From assembly GCA_027603065.1 (NCBI GenBank), contig JADGJP010000053.1, positions 60,018 through 124,017 of the forward strand: DNA of 64,000 nt, given 5' to 3'. Of the stretch, positions 8,987-64,000 are shown piece after piece (position 1 is the first letter of the stretch; every line of letters begins with the position of its first letter). The notes under the pieces are model-generated. The model searched no databases and had not been told where the DNA came from. It saw only the letters and a program-made list of their open reading frames with translations. A program made the position numbers and the translations under genes. The stretch is from Geranomyces variabilis. Taxonomy: Eukaryota > Chytridiomycota > Chytridiomycetes > Spizellomycetales > Powellomycetaceae.

Positions 8987-9479
8987 ACAATCTTTTTCGG
9001 GACGCCCATCTCTTTTGTCAGGCAGGCTCGTTGCGCCGGGGTTTGAAGGGTGCTCTGAGTGCCCCGCTAGGGCTCAAATATGTGGGTGAGCTGGCCCCGG
9101 ACTTAGCAGTTTTCGCCTTTTGGCAAGAGCCTCGAGCCGGCGATAAACACTTTGAAGTGGAATGTATTTACACTGAGAAAGAAGAGAAAAAAACGAGAGC
9201 TCAGGCTGAAAGGGAACACTAAAAAAAAATGCGACAGTACGGCAGGATCGGTGCTATGAACTAGAAAGATATGATAGATAGGAGAGGGGCCGGCAGATCC
9301 TGTCGTGGACCGCAGCGCTGGTGGTGTATCGAAAGTGGATTCGGGAGAGGGAAATGGCGGAGGATGTGTGGCGGAGTGAGCGGCAGAAACCGACAGCTAA
9401 AAAGTGTCTCGCGTCGGCGCATATCGGTGAGGGAGAGAAAAGGTGGTTGCGTTGATTGCTGATGGGCTCGAACGTTTTT
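8987..9479. other. Intergenic / NOP56 3' region
   Basis: Lies between the tRNA and the NOP56 stop codon. The minus-strand open frame that extends into it is a read-through of a NOP56 intron and has no support. Confidence 0.5.
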
Positions 9480-11170
9480 TTACTTCTTCTCCTTTTTGCT
9501 CGACTTTGGAGTCTTGTCCTTCTTCTCGCTCTTCTCCTTCTTCGACGTCTTGTCTTTCTTAGGCGTCTTTTCCTTCTTCTCGCTCTTGTCCTTCTTTGAC
9601 TTCTTCTTTGGCGTCTTTGGTTCCTCGTCCGAGTCGTCCGAGTCGGATTTACGCTTCTTCGGTGCTTCTGCAAAAAAAGCGGGACACAGTTAATTTCAGC
9701 TCGGTGACGACTAAAGTAAGCCCGCTTTATCCGCAACATACCCTCGGCGTCCTCTTCGTCGTCATCGTCAACAACAGCATCGATCAGATCTTCCATGCCC
9801 ACGGCCGCAAGTGCCTTTTGCATAACCTCCGCGTTCTTGCGCGGTGTGACGCCTTCCTCGTAGAACTTCACGCGCTCCTCAACCTGCTCGCGGAGCAGCT
9901 CGCCAAACTTGCTCGTTGGCTTGTCAAGGAAGCAGTCAATGCGGGATGCGATCGAGCATTTATTCGCAAGAACGCGCGAGATCCGACCCTTGTTCTTTTG
10001 CGCCGCGCGGCCAATAAACGTCGAGTGGTAGATAAGACCGTATTTGGGCGTGTTCCCCTTGGTCTTGAGCGCACGGAAAAGTGCCTTTTCGGCGCCGAGA
10101 ATCTGCACGGTCGAGGCAGGGTACTTGGCAAGGTTGGTCAACGATCCAGCGTGAGCAATGAGACGGGCGCCAACCATCTCGCCAATGAGGGCCGAAAGGT
10201 TGGGTGCAACCTGGTGCATTTTGCTAACGAGGTAGCCATGCAGCTGCTTGCGGTAGTCGGTCAGCGAAACAACCCGCTCGGCAAAGCTGAGGATGTTGGT
10301 CATGTCAATTTCCGAAATGTCGGTACCCATGGACGCGCGAGCGGCGTCGAGGATTTGCTTGGCTTTAATCGGGTCACCCGCCACGGCCTCGAGCTGCTCC
10401 AGAGAATCTTCGCCAAGGTCACCCTTGTTCTTGATAAGTCTGACGAGCTTGGCGTAGATACCATTGTCGGAGCAGATCTTGACAAGTTCCGGGAAGTGCC
10501 AGCCGTACCATTCACGCACGCGCATCGAGAACGTGTTGACGTCCTTGTCCAACTGGTCAAGCAGGTTGATCGACTGCATAATCATGTTGTCGGCCCTGTT
10601 AACGTTGAACTTCACTTTGGCACGCGAGTAGGCGTGACCGAGACCGAGCTGCGCTTTGTCCAGATCGCCTTCCTTCAGCTGCGCGAGCAGGCGGTCGGCG
10701 TGCAACCTGATACCACGCAAGAGCTCCCGAACAATGTCGTTGTGAACGCAGTCGTATCCCAGCTCCGCCTTAATGCCACCTCCCAAGTTGCTCTCGGACA
10801 CTCCAAGCTGGACCGCCTGCTTCTTGCTCGCTTTGGGCAAGTTCATTTCGAGGAACGCCTTCAACGACGGGTTGACGACACCTGGAAAACGATAAACCGC
10901 AGCGCCATTAGCGACACGTTCTTACTTTTTGAAACAAACCCAGTCAGCGTACAACGCCGCCTACACACCTTCGGAAACATCCATAATGTTCTCAAGAGCG
11001 TGCGCCGCGCTCTTGAAAGGCGCAAACGACCTTAGCTTAATGGATTTGCTGAAGCGTGATAGGTCCGTCACGCTTTGCTGGACTTCTTCCAACTCCTGGC
11101 CAATCTCCTCGGACTCGATACGCTCAAAAAGAGCGTATCCCGAGGCCGTTTCGTGCAAAATAAAAAACGA
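9480..11170 (-). CDS. NOP56: NOP56, box C/D snoRNP core protein
   Basis: NOP56 is a nucleolar scaffold of box C/D snoRNPs that guide rRNA 2'-O-methylation, with NOP58 and fibrillarin. Minus-strand exons are 11170-10969, 10881-9742 and 9667-9480, about 509 residues. The N-terminal domain starts [13 protein letters not shown] and includes FLEMNLPK. The NOP domain carries [20 protein letters not shown] and [20 protein letters not shown], the NOP56 version rather than NOP58. The last exon encodes a Lys/Glu tail with repeated KKDK/KSEKK units ending before TAA. The start codon is not in the first listed exon, which begins at an AG acceptor with no ATG in frame. A short upstream exon between about 11175 and 11330 is expected but not resolved. 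Confidence 0.93.
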
Positions 11171-26499: not shown

Positions 26500-28252
26500 T
26501 TATTCTTCCTCCTCTTGGATCGTGCTGAATGCGGCGTTGATCCGCACCCTGGACAAGAGCGCCGTCTCTCTTCGCGAGCGCACCTCAGCCATGCGCGCAG
26601 CAACTACTTTTTCAAAACGTGCCGAGATGGACGGAAACCCTTTCAAGACCTCTTGCAGGTCGTTGCGAGAGAGCACCATGCAGAAACTGTTCTGTAGCGT
26701 ACGCACTGACGCAGTTCGCGGAATGTCAAATAGAACCCCAAGCTCACCTGTTTGAGAAAGGCAGGGAATAGCAAAATTAGCATCGAGCTGTCTGAATTCT
26801 GAAAAATGAGAGGCTCTTATGGTGCATCGTACCGAAAAAGGATCCCGGACCAATCGTACTGTACACGGTCTTTCCATCGCTCGAGACCACCTCCACCTTT
26901 CCCTTGCTCAAGAAATACATTTCGCGGCCAACCTCCCGCTTGCGGATCACATACTCTCCCGCCAAAAAGATGGCAGGTGTCATGCGGGAGTTGAGTTCGC
27001 GCTCGAAATCCGGAAGCTCGCGCGCAATCGCCGAGGTCGACGCTGTCACGGTCGAGTGCCTTCGGGACGATGAGCCCGAGTTTGTCTGCGATACTGGTTG
27101 GGAACGAGGCGGGGTATTTGTAGCGGCGGAGGTGGTATACGGGTCCGGGAGAGAATATCGGCGGGCGCGAGCGATCCTTGGTTGTTCGACAGGCAATGGC
27201 GGCGCGGGTTCGGGGGTGATGTTTAACAACGGCGGCGGTGCATTAGCTGGAGGAGTGCGGGGTAAGGCGATGGCCGCGGGCGTAGGTCGGGCGGCCGAGG
27301 CTGGCATGGAATTGCGTCTCATGCGGCCAATTCGCGGTGGCGGTACAGCGGGCGCATCTACCTTTTGCGTGCCTGTATCTGAAGGCTGGCTGTCTATTTC
27401 GTTCCGCAAGCCTGATGGGGCTCCACACAAGCCAATCTTTCGGAAATCCATCATCGTGGGCAAAACAACGCCGAAAGCAACCAGCGTCGTCAGCTCGTCA
27501 ATGGTTGCCGTTCGCAGTTCCCCGCCCACCATAATCTCGTGTGTCGCCTGCTTTAACGCGCCTCCACCGTCAACAGACGCCGATTCGCACAAGGACAGAG
27601 TGCGGGGACTGGGCTGTTGTGGCGGCGTGTCCAGCCCTTCGCGAGCTTCCGCCACCGTCATCTGGCCACCGGGCGTCATGATATACTCCTGCTCTGCTGG
27701 CACATCCGCCGCAGCAGATGGCAGGTCCTGCACCGTGCCTGTGGAGTTGCGCCTGTGCCATCCCGGTCCCGAACCTCTTCGACCTGACGATAGCTGTGAT
27801 GCCGATCCCGTCCCTGGCCCGGATGCATCGACCGTGAGCGCCGAATTGTTGACATCGGAGTTAGCCGATTCCTGACGAGATTCGATCTTGAGGGTCTCAG
27901 GGAGCGATGCCACCCGATCCTCAACTTGGATGTGTTTCGCGACGACATTTTCAATAGAGTCTGCGGTATTCGTCACAGTGGTGCGGGCACGCGCGACATC
28001 CGCAGCGTCAATAGAAAACCGGCGAAGGCGGTCGCGAGCCGGTGGTACCGCGCTGCGATTGTTAGAGCCTTGGAAAACGCCGGCGTCTGATTGCCGGCGA
28101 GGAGGACCAGCAACGCGCGGCGGCTCTTCCGGCGGCCACTGATCAAACGTAGAAAGACTTTTGACTGTGGAAGGCCGTTTTGCGAGAAAAAGACGCTTGA
28201 CAGAGTTCAAGAAACCCCGTTTCTGTTGTTGTTGCTGCGTGAACTCGAGCAT
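26500..28252 (-). CDS. Cyclic nucleotide-binding domain protein (2 exons)
   Basis: Exons 28252-26833 and 26747-26500 join in frame to about 555 residues. The first 420 are disordered, Pro/Ser/Arg-rich, with several R-R-x-S sites (RRNSMP, RRYSLP, RRHSTV) that look like protein kinase A targets. The C-terminal 120 residues are a cyclic nucleotide-binding domain: FLAGEYVIRKREVGREMYFL, then the phosphate-binding cassette GELGVLFDIPRTASV, which the intron splits after its first base. No kinase, GEF or channel region precedes it, so it could be an anchoring or sensor protein in cAMP signalling. The start was set at the ATG before LEFTQQQQQKRGFL; upstream in-frame ATGs exist. Confidence 0.7.
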
Positions 28253-28825
28253 GGATGGAGGATGGAGGAAAAAAAGGTCAAACAAGGGATGTTCAGAGAC
28301 ACCCTTAATAATACTGCACACGAGGCAAGCGAAATATTCGGCTATATTGATGAAGGTTGTTGGTCGCAGTCGATGGATATTCTCAGACCGGGATGGGGGC
28401 GTTCCGACGGTTACCCGATTTAGCATGTTTTTCGGCCTGCGCGTCGGCGGCGAATCCGGGTGTGAAGGTTTCATGTCTAGTTGCTAATTCTGCTAGTCCA
28501 AGAAAGCCGGTAAAGCTGCCGTTTGAAGAGTGGCGGGGGTAGTTGTGCAAGGGATGCGAATGGCGACGACCAAGTGGAGAGTTCGACAGCTAAACGCGAG
28601 TAAGATGCTTTTGAGTGGGGAAGTTATGACTCACCATGTGCGGAATCGGTCCAGCTGTCCAACCGCGTTCATTACACGCTCTACCCAGGCGCGGTACACT
28701 TGAATGGCATGGTCCTCAATTGGGGGCTGCCGTACGCATAATGATGATGTTTTCAAAAACTAAATGCATTGCTCGGTACAGCTACTCGATCTACGGTCCG
28801 CTCTTTCACGCCGTATCTCAAAGGC
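28253..28825. other. Intergenic, no gene recognised
   Basis: About 570 bp between the end of alanine aminotransferase and the start of the cyclic-nucleotide-binding gene. Nothing convincing was seen on either strand. Confidence 0.5.
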
Positions 28826-51896: not shown

Positions 51897-54800
51897 TTAC
51901 TGTGCAGCGCCTTTCGCTCGTGTTGCAACCAAAGAAGGTTTCGCGGTCGCCGGTACAGTCGCGGGTTTTCCAGGCGGTTGAGGTGTGGAATCTCCATTGC
52001 CGGGGTTTTGAGCAACGGCCGCAACTTTCGCTGCGTCTTTCTTAGCCGCCGCATCGTACTTCCCTTTTCGTACCGACGCAAGTTTTAACCTCGCGCGCTC
52101 GAGCTCCTTCTCCATCTTCAAGATGGCGACTTGAGCGTCCATCTCGGCCACTCTGCTCTGCGTGGCACCTCCCTTGGCTCCAGCGGCCATAAGTGTTGAG
52201 AACTGCTCCGCGTCCTCAAACGCCATGTTTTCCTCGGCTGCGCGTACAAGACTTTCCGTGGCTGTCGTTACAGACTTACCGGCAGCGCGTAGACGTATCT
52301 GCGCCTGCGAATTGGGATCTGCCCGCGCCGTAGCGGCGGAAAGAAGCTGCGCTGTTGAAGCGCTGACGGCTTTCGCGCCCACAACAACGCGCTCGCGTTC
52401 CAATTTGCCCTTAATCGCTTGGTTGGCCGTCTCGCAAAGGTCTGACGTTGCGCCAGCGACCATCTTGGCCGCGCTGACCAATCCATCGCTCCAAGTTCCG
52501 TCGGAAAAGTACATGGCTTCCTCTTTGGGTCCAGTGCGGCCACGCGCAACCAGCTCACGCTGTGCGCCGGTTGCAGACCGCACGAGCGCGGCTGTTGCCG
52601 CTGCAATAGCTTTAGCTGCTTCTAATATCTGATCCTCAAAGTTGAGGTTCTCGTTTGCTTCTTGAGGTCGTGGAGCCGGTTGCAGAGCGGCGAGCTTGCG
52701 CGCCGCAGCCTCAATGGATGCCGCCGCCGCCAAAAGCTCGCGTTCGGCAATGACGTTGGGGTCGTTGACATCAACGTAGCCGGCGGGGAGCAGAGCAGAC
52801 GCAGCGTTGACCACTGTATTGACGGACATGGCCACTTCTTTTGCACCAACTTGGACATTTGTCTTGTTCTCAGGCGTGCTGAACTCTTGCTGCGTTTTGA
52901 TCCGCCCCAAAAGACCCTTTACAGCAAGGCCAGCCTTTTGTACGGCATCTATCACTGGTGCCTTTTGTTCTGCCGGCGCTTTCTCCGTGGCAGCCTTCGA
53001 CGCTCGCACAAGATCCTCGAGCTGCTTTTTGATTGCATTGGCCGCCGAAACGAGTTCCTCTTGAGCACGAGATGACGCCGATACAAGACTGGCTGCTGCT
53101 GTTGCCAGTTGTTTGGCAGATCCGGCCACTTCTTCCGGTAGCGCAGTGCCTTGGGCTGGTTCTTTCGATTCGAGAACTCCTATTGCCAGGTCAATCTCGG
53201 CCATTGCGCCCTCTAGGGCCCGCGTTCCCCTCGTAGCCTCGTCGCCCAAAACTCTCGTGGCACGAATCAGCTCGCGCATTGCCAAGAATTCGATTTTCAC
53301 TTTTTCGGCCAGCTCCATCATGACGGGGTCGTCGGGTGCCCGACCGCAAGCGTTTATTGCGGCTCCGATCAACGCTTGCAAACCCTCCGCGACGGACTTG
53401 GCGGAGCCCAGCAACTGTTGCTGCATATGCTTATCGGCCGACGTGACGGAGATGGCTCCCGAGCGCACATTATTTCGGAGCACCTCGAGTGCTGCAACTG
53501 ATGCGGTCGCCACGGCACCGAGCTCGTCTTGCGTACCGCCGACGGCCGTGATGTACGCTTTAATCGCTTCGGTGACGGCGCGCGCCGCGCTCAGCAATGG
53601 ATCTTTATGCCGCGCGAAGTTGTCTTTGATGTCAACTGGGTCCAGCTGTCCAGCCGACGCGAAGATGATGTTACCCTCGATTTCGGCAATGATTCCATTG
53701 ATGTTTTCAATGGCATTTTTGCAAAGCAAGAGACCCTTCGACCCTTCTTTTGTTGTAGCCATGAGGCCGGCCACAGAGCCGGAAACTTCACGAGCCGCAG
53801 CGCTGAGCTTGTTTCGCGAGACCTGATCTGCGGCGCTCTTTCCGCTGGCGTGGCGCATGGCCTCAATGAGTTTGACACTAGACGCCCCAAGCCCGCGCAG
53901 GCCGTCTTGGATACCGTCTCTGACCTTCTGATCGCCGGTGGCCCGAACCGCACGTCCGCCTTTGGTACATATGTCGTCGTATAATACCGCAAACTGCGCC
54001 GCATATTGCCGGAACTGGGCGGGCGTTTTGGCCTTGGAGATTGCATCGCCGACTGCCCCGACGATCTGTTTTCCCGCGGCGTCCATCTCCTCCTCAAAGA
54101 TGTGATACGCCTTACTCACTGTGTCGGGGACACGGCCCTCCAGCCCACCGACTGCCATTTCAATCGACTCGACCGCTTTGGTAAACTCGCCGCTTTCATC
54201 ACGCGAGCCTTCAAGCGACGCGACCAGTTTGTTGATGGCCGTGCGAAACTTAGCGCGCTCTTCGTCGACCTTCTTGCATCCGCCTGCGTTTCGCCCATTG
54301 CCTCCGTTGACTTTGGCGGCGTAGACAAAAGCGTTCATGGCCTCGCCGAGAGCCTTGACTTGATCCAGAACGGACATCTGCTGTTGCATGTCGATCATGT
54401 TGGAAGCAAGGCCGACGGCTCCGATAGCCACCTTAAGGACAAAAGTAAGTTGAGCAAATCTTTCGCTTCTGAGAAAATCTAATCATGCAAGCTCACCCGC
54501 CCAAAAGAAGTTGGAAGCTCCGATACTGCGGTCCCAAGTGCTCTCGCATCTTCCTTGGCCGCTTTGGCGACGACATCCGCCAGGCTCGCAATCACGCGCA
54601 CATTGTCTGCGAGCGCTACAGTGGTCATTGTCTCAGGCTGCGGGGCCAGGTTGTTCACAGTGGCTTCCACGATGGCTCCATCAATTGTGGTCACGGCCTC
54701 CGAGAGCTTTTCCAGCGCGAGGTCGCATTCTTTTTGCCCAGGCGCTGAACTTGTGACTGTCTGCAGGGCTTCCTTGACCGCGTCAGTCACTGCGCGACTT

Positions 54801-57800
54801 TGTGCCTGCAGTAATTGCAGGGAGGCTTCGTCCCTCGGGTTACTGCAGATTAGTTTGACCGTGCCAATCAAGTCCTGCACACTCGTGATGATGCTATCCG
54901 ATCCGTCAAGAATCGGCCGCTGCGAAGCAGCCGCCGTAGCGCCTACTTTTGCATCTGTCCCAGCAAATTCGGAAGACATGGAGAACAGCACGATTTTATC
55001 CACTGCGTCCGTAAGCGGCAATGCGGCCTCCTGGCAATTGCCTCGCGTCTCCTCGTTAGGATTCAGCGCCATCAGTTTTATTGTTGCCACAAGCGCGGAG
55101 GTTTTCGTGGCGAGGTCTTTCGCGGCGGCCAAAAAATGCGATTTGGAGGCGGGTGTCACTTCCGAATTTGCACCTGCCTCGCGGCACGCAGTGCAGAGCG
55201 CTGCGGTTTGTTTCGCAATCTGACCCGCAATCTCCAATATAATGGTTTGCGTATTTGTCGGATCCACTAATTTAGCACAAGCGCGCTTGATGTCAAGTGC
55301 GGCGGCGGAAAACTCGACTTGGTCAACGATTGGAGGAATGGCGGCAATGGACATTTCATCAGCCACGCCGACAAGATACGCAGCGCGAACATTTCCCTCG
55401 GTAAGCGTTACAACCGCGTTAGCGAGATCAACGGAATCATTAGCCAGTTTCATCACGTTTCCCGTACGAGCATTGCTAGACATTGCTGTGAGCGTTGCCG
55501 CCAACTGCTTTGAGGTAGCAGATACTTTTGCAATGCTCTCGCCATACGTGTCATCATTAAGGGTTGCGTCATTGACGGATCCGAGTTTACCGGATGCGAC
55601 ATTAAGTATCTGCAGAGCATTGTTGCATTCTGCGTGACCAGGAGCCGCCGCCGAGCACACCTCGAGCAGCTTGTTGATTCCATCACTAATCTCTTTCGTT
55701 GCACCCATAAGCAGAGATCGCAGCCCAGCGTTCGAAGGGTCGAGTGCACATTGCTTGGTCATATTGAGCATATGTTGAGAGGATGCGCCAAGGCCAGTGA
55801 GCATTTCTTGAAGCTTGCCCATGGCCCCGTCGTCTGTCGTAACTTGCGCATACTGTCCAGCAGAATCGGCGAGTTTTGCATAAGCCGCTGCAAAGCTTGC
55901 TGCGTTTTTTGTGAGCTCTTCCGGCGCCGCCCGTGACGCCGTAACAACGCCGTTAGCCGTGACCGCCATGCGGGATGCAGCGGCCTGCAATTTGTTTTGC
56001 GACACCTGGAACGAGGTTGGTGCTGCTGATGAGGGACTCGTGACAGCGGCCGCCAGTCCCTTCTTTTCCACGGTTCGCTGCACTTTGTGAATGCCGGCAA
56101 TGGACCGGTCGATCTCCCGCTGTCCGGGTAGAAAGCGAGCGAGCGTATCCAGCGCACCCGCCATTTTAGTGGCATTGGTTTCGAAGCTGGCGCGTCGGGC
56201 AGGATCGTCGACAGCCTCCTTGGTGCTCCCTAAAAGACTGGATAATGCACCTGTGACCATGTTGGCAGCCCCGAGAAGCTCCTTCCGAAATCCCACGTCC
56301 TCTTCCGCAGAGGCGAGAGCGAGCGCGGCGAAGGATAGCGCTTGGAGTGCCGCCACAGCATCGGTCGCTGCCTGGCCTGCGGTCTTTTCGTTCCCTTGCT
56401 GCACCCCCCCTGCAAGCTGCGCGAGGTCTGTCTGTAATGAGCGCACCGCCGCAAGAAGTTCTGTCTGACCGCCCCCCTCCCCGATACTCGGGAGACCGGC
56501 TTCGGCGCGCTCCGCTGGTGTCTGTAAGGCGGCTGGATTGGCCACTGCGGCACGAAGCTCCTGCTGATATGCCACCAAAGAGTGCATGGCGCTCTCAAGC
56601 TCAAGCCCGGCGCTTGCCTCTTCTGCATGCGCATATGCTTTTTCCAGCTTGACAAGATCTTCCGATATTTGATTCACCGCGTTCTGTAAACCAGCTTGTG
56701 CGGCTGCATCAGCGATGGTCGGCGCAGCGACTCGCGCATTGGCAAGAAGGGTGTTGCCCGGAACTAGGAACTTTTTCGCAGCCTCCATCAACTTCATCTG
56801 CGCGACTAGGTTGTCCGGTTCATTGGCGCTCGTCTTCATTGCCGCAGCGAGCGCAGGAGTCAGCTCTGTGACACGCCTCGCGGCTTGATTGAGTTGCAGC
56901 TGAGAGGCTTGGTTTCGATTACTCTGCGCGGTGGACCGCGAGGCGGAAATGAGCTGATTGGATGACGCTACACAATTACGAACAGCCTTTACAAGCTTTC
57001 CGAACGCTTTCGCGCGCAGCTGAGGACCCGCGGCAGAATTGCTTGCGCTGCGCACCGCAAACACAGCTTCCTGCAAGCGAGCCTGACTTGCAGGCTCGTT
57101 CAGGTTGCGAGCAGTGTCCTTTGCGGCGGCGACCATTTTGGCTGTGGCGTCTCCAAGCGAGCGAGCCGCATTTAAGAGCCTAGTACGCTCTTCAAAATCT
57201 GTGGTATCAGCTCCAAGCGCTTTGATCATGTTGACATATTGCATCGAGATCATAGTCAGATCACGCGCGCCGTTGACAATTCCATCAACGGAGTCAACTT
57301 TATCGAGCATGCGGTCGACGGAAGCGATTACGGCGTCATACTGTAGATCCACAGGATTCTCGACAGACGTGTCGCCTCCCTTTCTGGCCATTTCTACAAG
57401 CTTTGCGATAGCCTCGTTTGTTTTCCCGGAATTCTCTTTCAAAGGAGCAAAGAGCTTAGGCGTCACGCCCGCCGCCTCGCACGACGCCAGAAGCTGCTCA
57501 ATGGCCTCGCTCATGAGTGCCGCCGCTTCTGCAAATTGGTCAAAGCACTGGGTGTTGTTGATGGCCGGGCACACTGCTGATGTGCATGCAATCAGTGCCG
57601 GCGCCAGATCTCCGACGCGCTTGGCGTCAGCGATGATCACCTGTTGTGTCGTATGATCTTTCACCGCAGCGGCGAGCGGGCGAGCCGCCGCTATAAGCTC
57701 GCTCGCCATTTTAGTCACCCCACGCGCAGATTGAATCATTCCTTCCTGTCCACTCTCATCGACATCGAGGCGGCCCATCAACATTAAAAGGTCCGCTGAC

Positions 57801-59850
57801 GCCAGGGCTACCTCTCGCCCTTGGGTGTGGAAGTCTTCTCGATTCAGTTGTCCCATGCAAATCGGTTGCGCAGCGTCAAGAAGCTTAGCGCAAGAATTCG
57901 CAATCTCGCGTCCTGCTGACAACAAACGCTCCTGGTCTTCGGCACTCTCTTGCAATCCCGCAAGTAACTTGATTCCTTGTGCCATTTGACTGAGGTTGGA
58001 AGTCATCGTCACGATGTTCGCGCCAATGATTTCGTAGTCCATCTCCTCAATCAAGCCCGTCACGTTGTTGATGAGGGATCCCGCGGCGGCAAGATTTGAA
58101 ATGATTTGTGATGCCACGGCTTCGGCGTTGACGTCCACGGTGTGCTGCTTCCACTGAATTGCGGCTGCATCGTTTCCAAGCGGCGGCAGATTGGCAGCAA
58201 CTTTCATGTCAGTCCGCGCGTTATTGACCATAGCAAACCCGTTGCTGATACTTTGCATTAACGTCTGCTGAGCGCCTGTGATTTCAGACATTTGCGGTGT
58301 GTAGCCTCCGGCCACGCTACCGTATTGTGCCGCGTAAAAGTTGGTACCGCCCCGACCCCATCCGGCGCGCATCCCGTCTGCCACCATAGGCGGCATGGCA
58401 ACGGCCTTGGTTTCCACCGCCGTCTTTGCCCCGGCCGTAACCACTCCGACGTTTGTGGCCCGACTTGGGGTAACGTACTCCTCCATCGTAGCCTGCTCTT
58501 CCTCGTCAATTTCGACAACCTTTTCCGCCTCCTTCCGCTTTTTGATGATAATGTCGATGTATCCTGCAATAAGCTGTGAGATCTGCTCTCCTTCGGTCGT
58601 GCGGACGGAAAAGTAGGCATCGGCGTAATCTCCAAAGTCCATGGTGAAGCTGCTTGGCGATGCCGCCCACCGCCGCAATTGTGTTAGCCGCCACTCCCGA
58701 ATAATCTCCTTTGTGATCGGGTCGAGCTTCACAACGCTCTGTTTGGTCACGCCTAGAAGCATGGCTGAATCCTTTTTCTTTTTCACCGTCTCGTCCTCCA
58801 CAAAAAAGAATGTGATTCCATATGTTTTTAGAGATCGGGATAGCTGGACATAGCGAAATTTGGCGTTGAGTTCCGTTAAGCCTTGGAGCTTACTATGCTC
58901 GGTGTAGATGCGCTTTTCAACATCTTTATTTTTCTGATATTCCGGAGGTACCATTTCTTTAAGTCTAATAGGAAATAAGATGATGAAATCATTGTCAGCG
59001 AGGGTTGCTGTTAAGAGGAAGCAGAAGCAAAAGCAACCTACTTGTGAAAGCCAGGCTTGTGTTTGTCGGCCTCATGGTTCCCGGACTGAACCTGTAATTG
59101 GATAGCCCCGAACTGGCACGCCTCTTCGGCCGTGCATGGATGCTTGCCACTTATAATCATTTCCTTGGCTTGATTATACATCAAATTGAGTTGCACAGGA
59201 TCATTCCGATCAATGTTCTGGTCGGTGAAAAAAAACTTTTTCTTCAGCAGAACTGTGTCTTCTTCGGTTACGCTCTGTTCCCGAAGCGTCTTTTCCGGAT
59301 GCAACCACCGTTGAGCTTCATTTTCCGCCGCGTTGGCAGCGGCTGCCGCGCTAGGCTTATTTCCCTTTGGCGGGAGAGGAGGCGGTTGATCCGAATGACT
59401 CTCGCGGATAATTGAATACTCTTCAGGGTTCTGAATACCAATGCGTTCGCAGATGATTTCGACTAGTTGCTGAACAGGCAACGATTCGTCGATCAAGATT
59501 GCCTTCACAGATGAATCCATGGTACGCACTCGAAGAGCGCGGTGTTTTTTCCGATATTCAAGCGAGTCCCCCGAGTTCATGTCGTAAAAATCCAGAATTT
59601 TGGATGGTTGCAGCCATTTGCCAGTCTCAGGCCACATGAGCCCGTGGTCAGCACCGCCGGCGGCGTCGCCGAACTTTTCTCGGATTTCCCGACAAACTTC
59701 ATGCACGGACATGTCGCCCGAGAACTGTTGCAAACGCAACGTGTATTAGAGAGGCAACCTCCATTCTCTTAATGCCATACGTTATCGCACCTGCATTGTC
59801 TTGGTTAAACCAATGCCCACCACGGTGATCTTTAATGATAAATGAGACAT
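51897..59850 (-). CDS. TLN: Talin, full length (4 exons)
   Basis: Talin links membrane receptors such as integrins to actin. Exons 59850-59791, 59724-59042, 58964-54497 and 54431-51897 join in frame to about 2581 residues, the normal talin size. The N-terminus MSHLSLKITVVGIGLTKTMQ splices to FSGDMSVHEVCREIREKF, as in the talin F0 domain. The FERM region includes NSGDSLEYRKKHRALRVR, KPGFHKLKEMVPPEYQ and the F3 segment SFTMDFGDYADAYFSVRT. Long Ala-rich helical bundles form the rod. The C-terminal I/LWEQ actin-binding module has TWSDGLVSAAKMVAGAT and EKELERARLKLASVRKGKY. No integrin gene lies in the window. Confidence 0.95.
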
Positions 59851-60236: not shown

Positions 60237-60265
60237 ACAGAACGCATGTTTTTCCTCTTTGTGGA

Positions 60266-60690
60266 GCCAGTTCGAGTTATACTTGTGGGCGGCGCTCTGA
60301 CAACATGTACGGCACCGAGATGAGTCTTTTGTACTTGAGGTGCTCTTTGTAAAAAAATCTGTGAGGCGACCGCCACTAAGAGTGAAGACTCAACTCATAT
60401 GAAATTGGTCAACTCTGCCGTGGTCAGCCAGTTCGACTTATACTTGTGGGCGGCGCTCTGACAACATGTACGGCACCGAGATGAGTCTTTTGTACTTGAG
60501 GTGCTCTTTGTAAAAAAATCTGTGAGGCGACCGCCACTAAGAGTGAAGACTCAACTCATATGAAATTGGTCAACTCTGCCGTGGTCAGCCAGTTCGACTT
60601 ATACTTGTGGGCGGCGCTCTGACAACATGTACGGCACCGAGATGAGTCTTTTGTACTTGAGGTGTTTTTCATAAAAAAATCTGTGGGGCA
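60266..60690 (+). repeat. 161-bp tandem repeat, about 2.6 copies
   Basis: Units begin at 60266, 60427 and 60588 with gccagttcga and are nearly identical through tacttgtgggcggcgctctg and gcgaccgccactaagagtg. The third copy diverges after about 60662 and fades by 60690. The period is exactly 161 bp. There is no open frame through the array and no spacer/repeat alternation, so it is not a CRISPR-like array. Confidence 0.92.
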
Positions 60691-60854
60691 ACCAGCAGTT
60701 GCTCTCCCTTACTTGGCCCATTCACTCCAAGACATCGCTTGCATAGAGAATCCGTTCCAGGGCATTGATGAGTGGTTTTATGACGTCCGCCGGGGGCGTT
60801 GCTGAGAACGCAAGATTGAATGTTGGCAATGGGGGGAAGAAATGGCAGCCGCGA

Positions 60855-61138: not shown

Positions 61139-61292
61139 CACTATATATGCTGCACGCCGCAGCATTCTGACTGTGCTGCTCTCTCTCAGGTAAGTCCAGT
61201 CTCATGCTCATGCAGTGCACTCGCCGCACTCGCCGCACTCGCCGCACAGCAGCAGCACCTAACCTTAGTGTCCTCCTTTCTATGCTCCACAG
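61139..61292 (+). promoter_or_regulatory. Fanzor promoter and probable leader intron
   Basis: A CTATATATG TATA-like sequence at about 61140-61149 lies 150 bp before the ATG. A CTCAG/GTAAGT donor at 61190 and a CTCCACAG acceptor ending at 61292 would remove a 103-nt leader intron just before the start codon. Confidence 0.5.
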
Positions 61293-61294
61293 CC

Positions 61295-64000
61295 ATGTCT
61301 CGCCGCCGCCGTCGCTCATTCAACCTCCAATCTCTTCCACGAACGCCACCTCTCGGTTCCCCGCCCAGCAAGCGTCAACGTTGGAATGAGGGGGCCGTCC
61401 GCCATGCTGCAATCTTTGTAGGAGACACCAACGCAATGCAGCTGGATGAGGTTGAACAGGTGGATGCTGGCGCACAGCTGGACGAGGTTGAAGAGGTGGA
61501 CGCCCACAACAGCTTGCAATGGCGTGCACCTCAGAGGTGGGCCAATTCACATGGCCCTCCGCCACCACCGCTGCCGCCTGCTGAAAGAGCCAAGCGCTCG
61601 CCACCCAGCAACTACGTGTGCGTGAAAGCCCGTTTCGGTTCCATCATCCACAACAACAAGGCCGGTGAGGTGGCAAGACTTCAAGTCTTCCTTCGCCATG
61701 TGCATCTTATACCTCAACGGGCGTCATGGATAATGAAGCTGTGGGACGCCAATATGCCACACCCGCAGGTATGTGTTGCTGATTCAATTCAAAGCATTAT
61801 TATGCATCATACAGTATATTGACTTTTATCTTTTTCAAGCGCGCACAGATTTTGACAGACAAGGACGTCAAACATCTGCTGGATGCCCTCAACTACGGTG
61901 AAATCACTCGCGGCGGCATCTTTCAAGCCACGCTGCATGATTATGACATCAACGTTGAGAATCTGACGGCAGTATCACAAGGCCCAGGGTGTGGACGTAG
62001 CTATCTGCAAAATACAATTAGCTACACCGCTACCAACTTGGTTACAAACCTTGAAGTCAACGTGTCTGTCAACTTCATGAAGAAGTTGCGCCAATACGTC
62101 GAGCGCAGGTTTGACATTAAGACGATCTTGCGGGAGTTCAACCACGTTACCGACAAACGCATACGCAAGTTCCTGTGTAAACGTCTGCGGCATTGTTTTA
62201 ACCAGCTGTGGAGGCTGATCACGAACCAGAATGTTCTTGTTGATGGCAAACTACCGGCCTTTGAACTGGCTTCGGCTTCCGACAGCGTTTTCTTTGATAT
62301 TTGGGGTGGGATTTTGTGCATCCTGCTGGCTGATCCAAAATCCCTCGAGTTCAATCTTGCATATGCGGTGGCATGCGAACCCGCTAAATATATCGACGCA
62401 TACTGCACACTCTCTCGCTTATGGCAAGCGGCGCGATTTCCGGCCCTCTTCTCGGCTATCCCTGTTTGCACCAGTCATGTTCAATCATATGTTCCCATCG
62501 ACACAAGAGCGCTCCTCAATGTCATACTTTGCTTAAATGCAAGCTTGGAAGCCCACTCAACTCTCAAGCAGAAGCTGAGATATTGGAACATGCTTTGCAA
62601 CGTCAACTATAGGTCTTTTCAAGATTGCGGAAATTTTAAATTTTCAGGTGTTGTGACTGACGCTGTCTGTATGTATACATTACTATTATACTAATGCTAA
62701 ACCTCCATTAGGAACAATACTTACAAACGGTGTCGGTGGTCACTGTAAATGCAAGAAACCGTCCCATGATGCCAAAACCATGCAAGGTATCACAGGCAGC
62801 CAAGCGCGCGGCAGTCGACAGGCTCTACATCGACACACCAGAAAATGCTGCGGTTATTTGTGACCGCATCTTGCATTCAGACCCCAATGCGCCGGTGGTC
62901 CTCTGTGATCCGAATATCCGCAACATGCTGTATTCGAAAGAGTACGGCACTGACAATATCATGCAGTACACACTCTCGCAGCAGAAGAAGGAAACGAAGA
63001 CTCGCGAGCGTGTTAAGTAGTGCAACAAGGACCGGCTCCGCAACTTGCCAGCGCCAGGCGGTACTACAGGATCTTTAGAGGCAACAATGCCGGGGCACAA
63101 GTCAATACTGGTAAGTTATAGTGGTGGTAGTTGGAGTGCACAGCGGATGCTGTGATGCTGTGGTGCGCGATGCTGTGACGCGGTGCCGCTGGATTGCATG
63201 GTGGATGATGTGATGCGCGATGCTGAGATGTGCGATGCTGGGGTGCTGTGATGCGCAATGCTGAGATGTGCGATGCTGGAGTGATGAGATGCGCGATGCT
63301 GAGATGCGCGATGCTGAGATGCGCGATGCTGAGATGCGCGATGCCGCTGGATTGCATGGTGAATGCTGTGATGCGCGATGCGCGGTGCAGATGTTGAGGT
63401 GCATAATGGATGCTGAGATGCGCGATGCTGAGATGCGCGATGCTGGAGTGCTAAGATGCGCGATGCAGATGTTGAGGTGCACGGCGGATGCTGAGATGCG
63501 CGATGCTGAGATGCGTGATGCCTCTGGATTGCATGGTGGATGCTGAGATGCTGTGATGCTGAGATGTGCAATGCTGTGACGCGGTGCCGTTTTCAACATC
63601 AGTCACCGGTAACTAACTTTTTTTTGTTTTTGTTTTTTCTATTTTTTTTTTTTTTTGCTAGGCCATTGATTTCAATCAATGGCTGGCATTTCAAGTGCAA
63701 CATCGCCTGGCATTTGAAAACTGCTATGCTGCAACTACCCGATGGCGCCGCCGCCGATTTGAGGCCTTACGTCTGGTGCGCAAAAGCGAGGACAAGTTTG
63801 TTAACCGGCTTTGTGAGCAGTTTGGCCAGGATCCCCTTATCATCATGGGAGATTGGTCTGCGGCGCCACACAGCATGCGTTTCCAGCCTCCCATCAAGAC
63901 GGCACGTTTCCGTACAATGCTTTGCCGCCATCATATACTGATGATGTACATTGATGAGTTTCGGACGTCAAGCCGCTGCCCATTTGTGATCCGCAACCCT
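61295..64000 (+). CDS. Fanzor: eukaryotic TnpB-like RNA-guided nuclease, partial and possibly disrupted
   Basis: Exons about 61295-61768, 61840-62647, 62712-63110 and 63662 onward; the gene is cut by the window end. A basic N-terminus (SRRRRRSF, PPSKRQRW) resembles nuclear localisation signals. Then comes NYVCVKARFGSIIHNNK, as at Fanzor N-termini, and a helical middle with SYVPIDTRALLNVI. RuvC-I is VVLCDPNIRNMLYS with a conserved Asp, followed by YTLSQQKKETK. The last exon has SEDKFVNRLCEQFG, LIIMGDWSA and MMYIDEFRTSSRCP, the RuvC-II/III block and first zinc-ribbon Cys. DPN replaces the usual DPG. A TAG at 63018 lies in the RuvC-I frame, and the junction to exon 3 does not continue the exon 2 frame, so this copy may be inactive. 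It is likely a mobile-element or domesticated gene. Confidence 0.85.
63130..63590 (+). repeat. Minisatellite (GATGCTGAGATGCGC units) in Fanzor intron
   Basis: About 460 bp built from 15-bp GATGCTGAGATGCGC units and variants, with a higher-order pattern in which GGATTGCATGGTGGATG recurs several times. Nearly identical GCTGTGACGCGGTGCCG sequences lie close to both edges. It lies inside the intron 63111-63661 (GTAAGT donor, long T tract, CTAG acceptor). The frames of 90-165 codons that cross it are products of the repeat and not genes. Confidence 0.9.

Follow-up and report, generated by a model that had tools for sequence, protein, structure and literature searches.

The right edge of the window, that is, the whole analysed stretch of 64,000 nucleotides of Geranomyces variabilis, very probably carries a broken member of a Fanzor1 mobile-element family with many copies, the right end of which would provide a guide-RNA scaffold followed by a guide. 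Fanzors are eukaryotic cousins of the CRISPR enzymes. Four coding exons of a Fanzor1-type protein were located at 61295–64000 on the plus strand, and the copy is cut within the last of them because the contig ends at window position 64000. The exon edges were set by alignment of ten copies from the same genome (the window copy and nine relatives), with GT donors and AG acceptors at the exon borders wherever the ten copies extend. Exon A (61295–61768) encodes a basic start (MSRRRRRS), a KRQR stretch, an acidic tandem repeat (QLDEVE) and a proline-rich stretch, and directly before its ATG a possible 5′-UTR intron (61190–61292, plus strand, GTAAGT ... ACAG) can be read. The N-terminal half of the conserved core is encoded by exon B (61840–62647), which would represent the REC/WED region in the alignment to SpuFz1, while exon C (62712–63110), also aligned to SpuFz1, carries the RuvC-I CDPN with the catalytic Asp codon at 62907–62909. 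Exon D (63662–64000) contains GDWSA, the relocated Glu codon (63956–63958) and the first zinc-ribbon Cys codon (63977–63979). The motifs named in the first-pass annotation were all located in their places, with LCDPNIRNMLYS in exon C, MMYIDEFRTSSRCP holding the Glu codon in exon D, and the KKETK block and LIIMGDWSA likewise in the window copy; its minimum of four exons agrees with the four in the window and the five coding exons of intact relatives. The intron between exons C and D (63111–63661, plus strand) contains a minisatellite at 63146–63576 with a unit of about GATGCTGAGATGCGC; repeat-rich DNA occupies the matching intron position in other copies. Further upstream, a 161-bp unit occurs in three tandem copies (60265–60747, plus strand; third copy 67% alike). 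Pieces of this unit also occur ahead of L015 and L028 and, as judged by eye, ahead of L062 and L068. The unit is either part of a variable left end or an older repeat.

Compared with its nine relatives, the window copy has a frame-breaking deletion of 29 nt near 62740 in exon C, and an in-frame TAG is found at 63018–63020 of the same exon. By its sequence, the window copy is a pseudogene from which the full protein can no longer be made; the earlier label of a Fanzor gene was right as to the family and its residues, and the damage to this copy had been overlooked. Recoding of the TAG was considered and dropped, since the nine relatives have no TAG at that position and the deletion breaks the frame regardless. 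The contig stops in exon D, ahead of any right end that this copy may still have.

Other genes of the window include Elp1, Nop56 and, beside the Fanzor copy, a complete-looking talin gene on the minus strand (51900–59745), which spans three reading frames and comprises FERM, middle, rod-repeat and I/LWEQ parts, with talin-1 chains as the best matches of its tail. Elp1 and Nop56 may score best against animal proteins. Long open frames overlap on both strands at 9257–11032 and 26780–28483, the minus-strand frame of the first being Nop56. The integrin-beta family had no match in the genome, which proves nothing as no control genome matched either, and the GH72 family had none in a search whose control matched in one genome, a bacterium.

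The assignment of the right edge to the Fanzor family was borne out by comparison with solved structures. Exon D of the window alone matched SpuFz1 (E 9.7e-12) and the Parasitella Fanzor1 (E 3.8e-9), and matches to two solved Fanzors indicate that the motif set is not due to chance. The full spliced protein of an intact relative (L011, 784 aa) matched SpuFz1 of Spizellomyces (8gkh) with E 9.2e-68 over residues 91–777 of 784. With Parasitella parasitica Fanzor1 (PpFz1, 9cf0) it shares a homologous core including the GNWSA and IDEFRTSS blocks, but the similarity is lower (E 2.9e-26) and the first zinc knuckle of PpFz1 is CxxC in the alignment. The earlier designation as chytrid-type is justified only in that the closest solved protein, SpuFz1, comes from a chytrid. 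A profile built from three copies retrieved SpuFz1 and PpFz1 and otherwise two chance-level chains (E 0.73 and 1.5), and the few stray PDB chains in the sequence searches had E values of 0.3 or worse. TnpB or Cas12 chains were not retrieved by sequence from the PDB chains at E 10. Searches of the five exon pieces and the whole protein against Pfam brought up no Fanzor model and a single weak hit, to Nipped-B_C (E 0.037), which fell short of the cut-off of that family, and the full protein had no Pfam-A match at E 0.1. In these profile and sequence searches an unrelated family was not found above cut-off or chance level. Scanning for viral relatives by pattern gave 57 and 6 matches, none of which was confirmed.

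The residues of the active site are also retained. In SpuFz1, two magnesium ions are bound by D383, N385, E541 and D606 (PMC10432273), and these align with D507, N509, E672 and D750 of the L011 protein. CDPN with the RuvC-I Asp was found in the window copy, L011, L012, L013, L015, L016 and L026, which are the copies with a readable frame there; the RuvC-I motif thus has the form DPN, like SpuFz1, versus the usual DPG, a form described as "near exclusively" that of Fanzors (PMC10711439). According to the same source, the relocated Glu of Fanzors precedes the zinc motif by six residues, and DEFRTSSRC in the window has this arrangement, with six residues separating E672 and C679 in L011. The suggestion that the Glu of DEFRTS is the relocated catalytic acid was correct in that it aligns with the Mg-binding E541 of SpuFz1. 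The last RuvC Asp, that of RuvC-III, and the second pair of zinc-ribbon cysteines, expected beyond the contig end, are supplied by the fifth coding exon, which is seen in the relatives only (4547–4807 in L011); the Asp lies in NRD (residues 748–750), aligned to D606, while L015 has NCD followed by a stop at this position. The Fanzor1 motif of Bao and Jurka, D-X(125,275)-[TS][TS]-X-X-C4-X(5,50)-RD (PMC3627910), occurs in L011 with D507, T675-S676, C679 and R749-D750.

The zinc-ribbon cysteines of L011 are C679, C693, C724 and C729. Its first knuckle is C-X13-C and not CxxC, as in all five readable copies (L010–L013 and L015), and the same spacing can apparently be followed through a frame change in L027, a broken relative of greater age. 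Six other Fanzor loci were read, of which L019, L020, L021, L024 and L025 have CxxC and L022 is unreadable there. The C-X13-C knuckle marks this subfamily; the second knuckle is two residues shorter in L013. Judged from the sequences, the feature is a Fanzor1-type gene of five exons, encoding a near full-length homologue of SpuFz1 that has the three catalytic residues D-E-D and the four cysteines of the zinc ribbon.

Further copies, which the first-pass annotation had proposed to look for, are present in the same 23.8-Mb genome as a multicopy family with intact members, and the match counts given here are lower bounds. Exon D has at least 25 matches, of which at least 18, including the window's own, reach 82% identity and seven are divergent, and the 89-nt right end has at least 31, at least 28 of them at 93% or more. 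Among the ten modelled copies, which exclude the partial copies L010, L014 and L018, two are intact at full length (L011 and L013), one (L016) has an open frame as far as its contig end, and seven are broken, namely L012 (one stop), L015 (two stops), L017, L023, L026, L028 and the window copy. Values of dN/dS range from 0.24 to 0.33 (10 pairs of 5 copies; codons with stops omitted), and from 0.26 to 0.36 for the same five copies without exon A, indicating that purifying selection acts between the copies. The acidic N-terminal repeat differs in length among copies. Divergent Fanzor lineages, several of them degenerate, also occur in this genome (L019, L020, L021, L022, L024 and L025 on contigs C71, C23, C26, C19, C38 and C6, respectively). 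Contig ends host 21 of the 28 close right ends, and 14 of these retain just 75–78 nt of the element, so that the assembly is evidently interrupted by these repeats. A Fanzor right end likewise opens the contig of the window (L044, C49 positions 1–77), so that both of its ends are Fanzor copies.

A hairpin-rich stretch that extends for up to 86–91 nt and lies 3′ of the stop codon is common to the close right ends, and beyond it the DNA is unrelated. The similarity ends at GGGCTTGTA, with two exceptions (L035 with one internal base and L043 with the last base), and the 30 right flanks compared, of 31, have no mutual similarity at E 1e-4. In the six copies measured, the core of the right end starts 14–52 nt past the stop codon, and its mean identity is 96.1%, compared to 91.8% in the fifth coding exon (exon E) and 65.6% in the intervening UTR. 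For the right end of L011 (L029), a fold of three hairpins was obtained with −42.3 kcal/mol (z −2.96); the third hairpin, TACAGGC...GCTTGTA, closes flush with the element end. This fold is 96.1% paired over 14 distinct rows versus 39–49% when slid, the fold itself being drawn from one of these sequences. A single compensatory pair was detected, and the shuffle control was not significant (89–125 of 500 shuffles reach the observed score for paired cells and double changes); covariation gives almost no support since the copies are too alike. The divergent right ends L057 and L058 fold weakly (z −0.45 and −1.11), with the terminal stem kept in both, and the terminal hairpin of L057 holds the one compensatory pair. 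A longer subset (L032 and L034–L036) has an extra upstream hairpin, folded for L035 and L036 only. Rfam searches with three right-end loci gave no match.

The position of this stretch resembles that of the RNA of SpuFz1, in which a 75-nt scaffold lies between the stop codon and the right end and a guide of 14–15 nt comes from the flank (PMC10432273). Beyond the first stem-loop the scaffold is described as variable between Fanzor1 species (PMC11423790), so that a different fold here is no objection. The right-end stretch is likely a guide-RNA scaffold with an adjacent guide, as an omega-RNA would lie, and we regard it as a candidate. It is quite unlikely that it is a DNA terminus only, that is, a transposition hairpin and not an RNA scaffold: such right-end hairpins also define Helitron-type elements, including the Fanzor1 elements CRe-1 to 3 (PMC3627910), and the covariation is not decisive, but three hairpins over about 90 nt, so close behind the stop codon and more conserved than exon E in the six copies measured, speak against this, and the SpuFz1 scaffold occupies the same position (PMC10432273). 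The stretch may serve in both roles at once.

The left ends vary among the 21 places located, all of which were inspected. GACGC..TGGTTGATTTTTATTACAAG is common to seven of them, apart from minor differences, eight carry what appear by eye to be pieces of a Copia reverse-transcriptase gene of varying length, and the remaining six form small groups. The Copia-like pieces are joined upstream of the Fanzor gene (L012, L015, L026, L061 and L063–L066). Fanzor1 elements of the Helitron2 group are reported to have a 3′ end that stays intact, a 5′ end that varies, and captured sequence (PMC3627910), and the left-end pattern with its Copia-like pieces fits Helitron-type Fanzor1 elements; the Helitron2-type combination of a fixed 3′ end with a hairpin and a variable 5′ end is present. 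Terminal inverted repeats above chance were not found when nine of the 21 left ends were locally aligned to the L013 right end in reverse orientation, as in every case at least 20 of 200 shuffles scored as well; by eye, one left-end group has a short likeness, TACAAG.CCC. The flanks of the five copies with both sides available share nothing longer than 7 nt as a target-site duplication, with chance-like words of 6–7 nt in three. A mobilising enzyme was not found in the genome by the Helitron and resolvase searches: the Helitron Rep/helicase (PF14214) had no match there, which proves nothing as the control genomes were also matchless and the search thus lacked a positive control, and the serine recombinase of IS607-type elements, the Fanzor2 partner (PF00239), had none while its control matched in 10 of 14 genomes.

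A family of host-domesticated or repurposed Fanzor relatives, for example RNA-guided binding proteins, would also account for the purifying selection between copies, the variable acidic N-terminal repeat and the changed zinc knuckle. This is very unlikely, however, as there are many copies with unrelated flanks and a single fixed right end, seven of the ten modelled copies are broken and the intact ones keep the catalytic residues, which together give the look of a mobile family. An origin of the copies by ordinary segmental duplication, or as an artefact of the assembly, is scarcely credible: although most close right ends are located where contigs terminate, as happens when an assembly fails at a repeat, seven of the 28 are within contigs with sequence continuing on both sides, and the 30 compared flanks differ, whereas duplicated segments would share them.

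Under the mobile-element reading, the intact copies would encode a nuclear RuvC endonuclease, and the right-end RNA with its three stem-loops, the last flush with the element end, would form the omega-RNA scaffold, with the first ~15 nt of flanking DNA as guide. The complex would cut matching DNA beside a short motif, by which the element may keep or gain copies, and mobilisation by an enzyme supplied in trans would fix the right end and leave the left end free to vary. Tentatively, we add an idea that is itself somewhat unlikely, namely that one right-end hairpin stretch doubles as guide-RNA scaffold and as the fixed terminus in a one-ended (rolling-circle-like) transposition. Each insertion, with any left end, would then arm a new right-flank guide, and the protein made by the few intact copies would also receive guides in trans from broken copies that keep the right end.

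Compared with known systems, the family is a further member of the already known Fanzor1 kind. With SpuFz1 and its element SPu-1 from Spizellomyces punctatus it has in common homology over nearly the whole length, the DPN RuvC-I, the four metal ligands, the multicopy state and a conserved noncoding stretch between the stop codon and the right end. However, SPu-1 is described as an element of ~2.1 kb with one ORF, inverted repeats of 30–33 nt and putative TA duplications, while in the present family the gene is divided into five coding exons, one intron holds a minisatellite, the protein has an acidic repeat near its N-terminus and a C-X13-C first knuckle, and the left ends are variable, with no inverted repeat above chance. 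CRe-1, 2 and 3 of Chlamydomonas (Helitron2 group) are alike in their spliced gene, which has five exons in CRe-1, and in an intact 3′ end with a hairpin, variable 5′ ends and captured sequence (PMC3627910), but no convincing target-site duplication was seen here in five copies, and the Helitron protein was not found in a search without a positive control. Among the matches listed from the open-access Fanzor literature, no such family is named, which shows little, and the chytrid Fanzor there is that of the SpuFz1 paper.

Experimental work has so far covered few Fanzors. The present family offers intact relatives, a candidate scaffold with a defined end, about 30 candidate guides and an altered zinc knuckle. 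With right ends that are fixed and left ends that vary, it allows one to ask by what means Fanzor elements are mobilised, and whether their copy number benefits from the nuclease.
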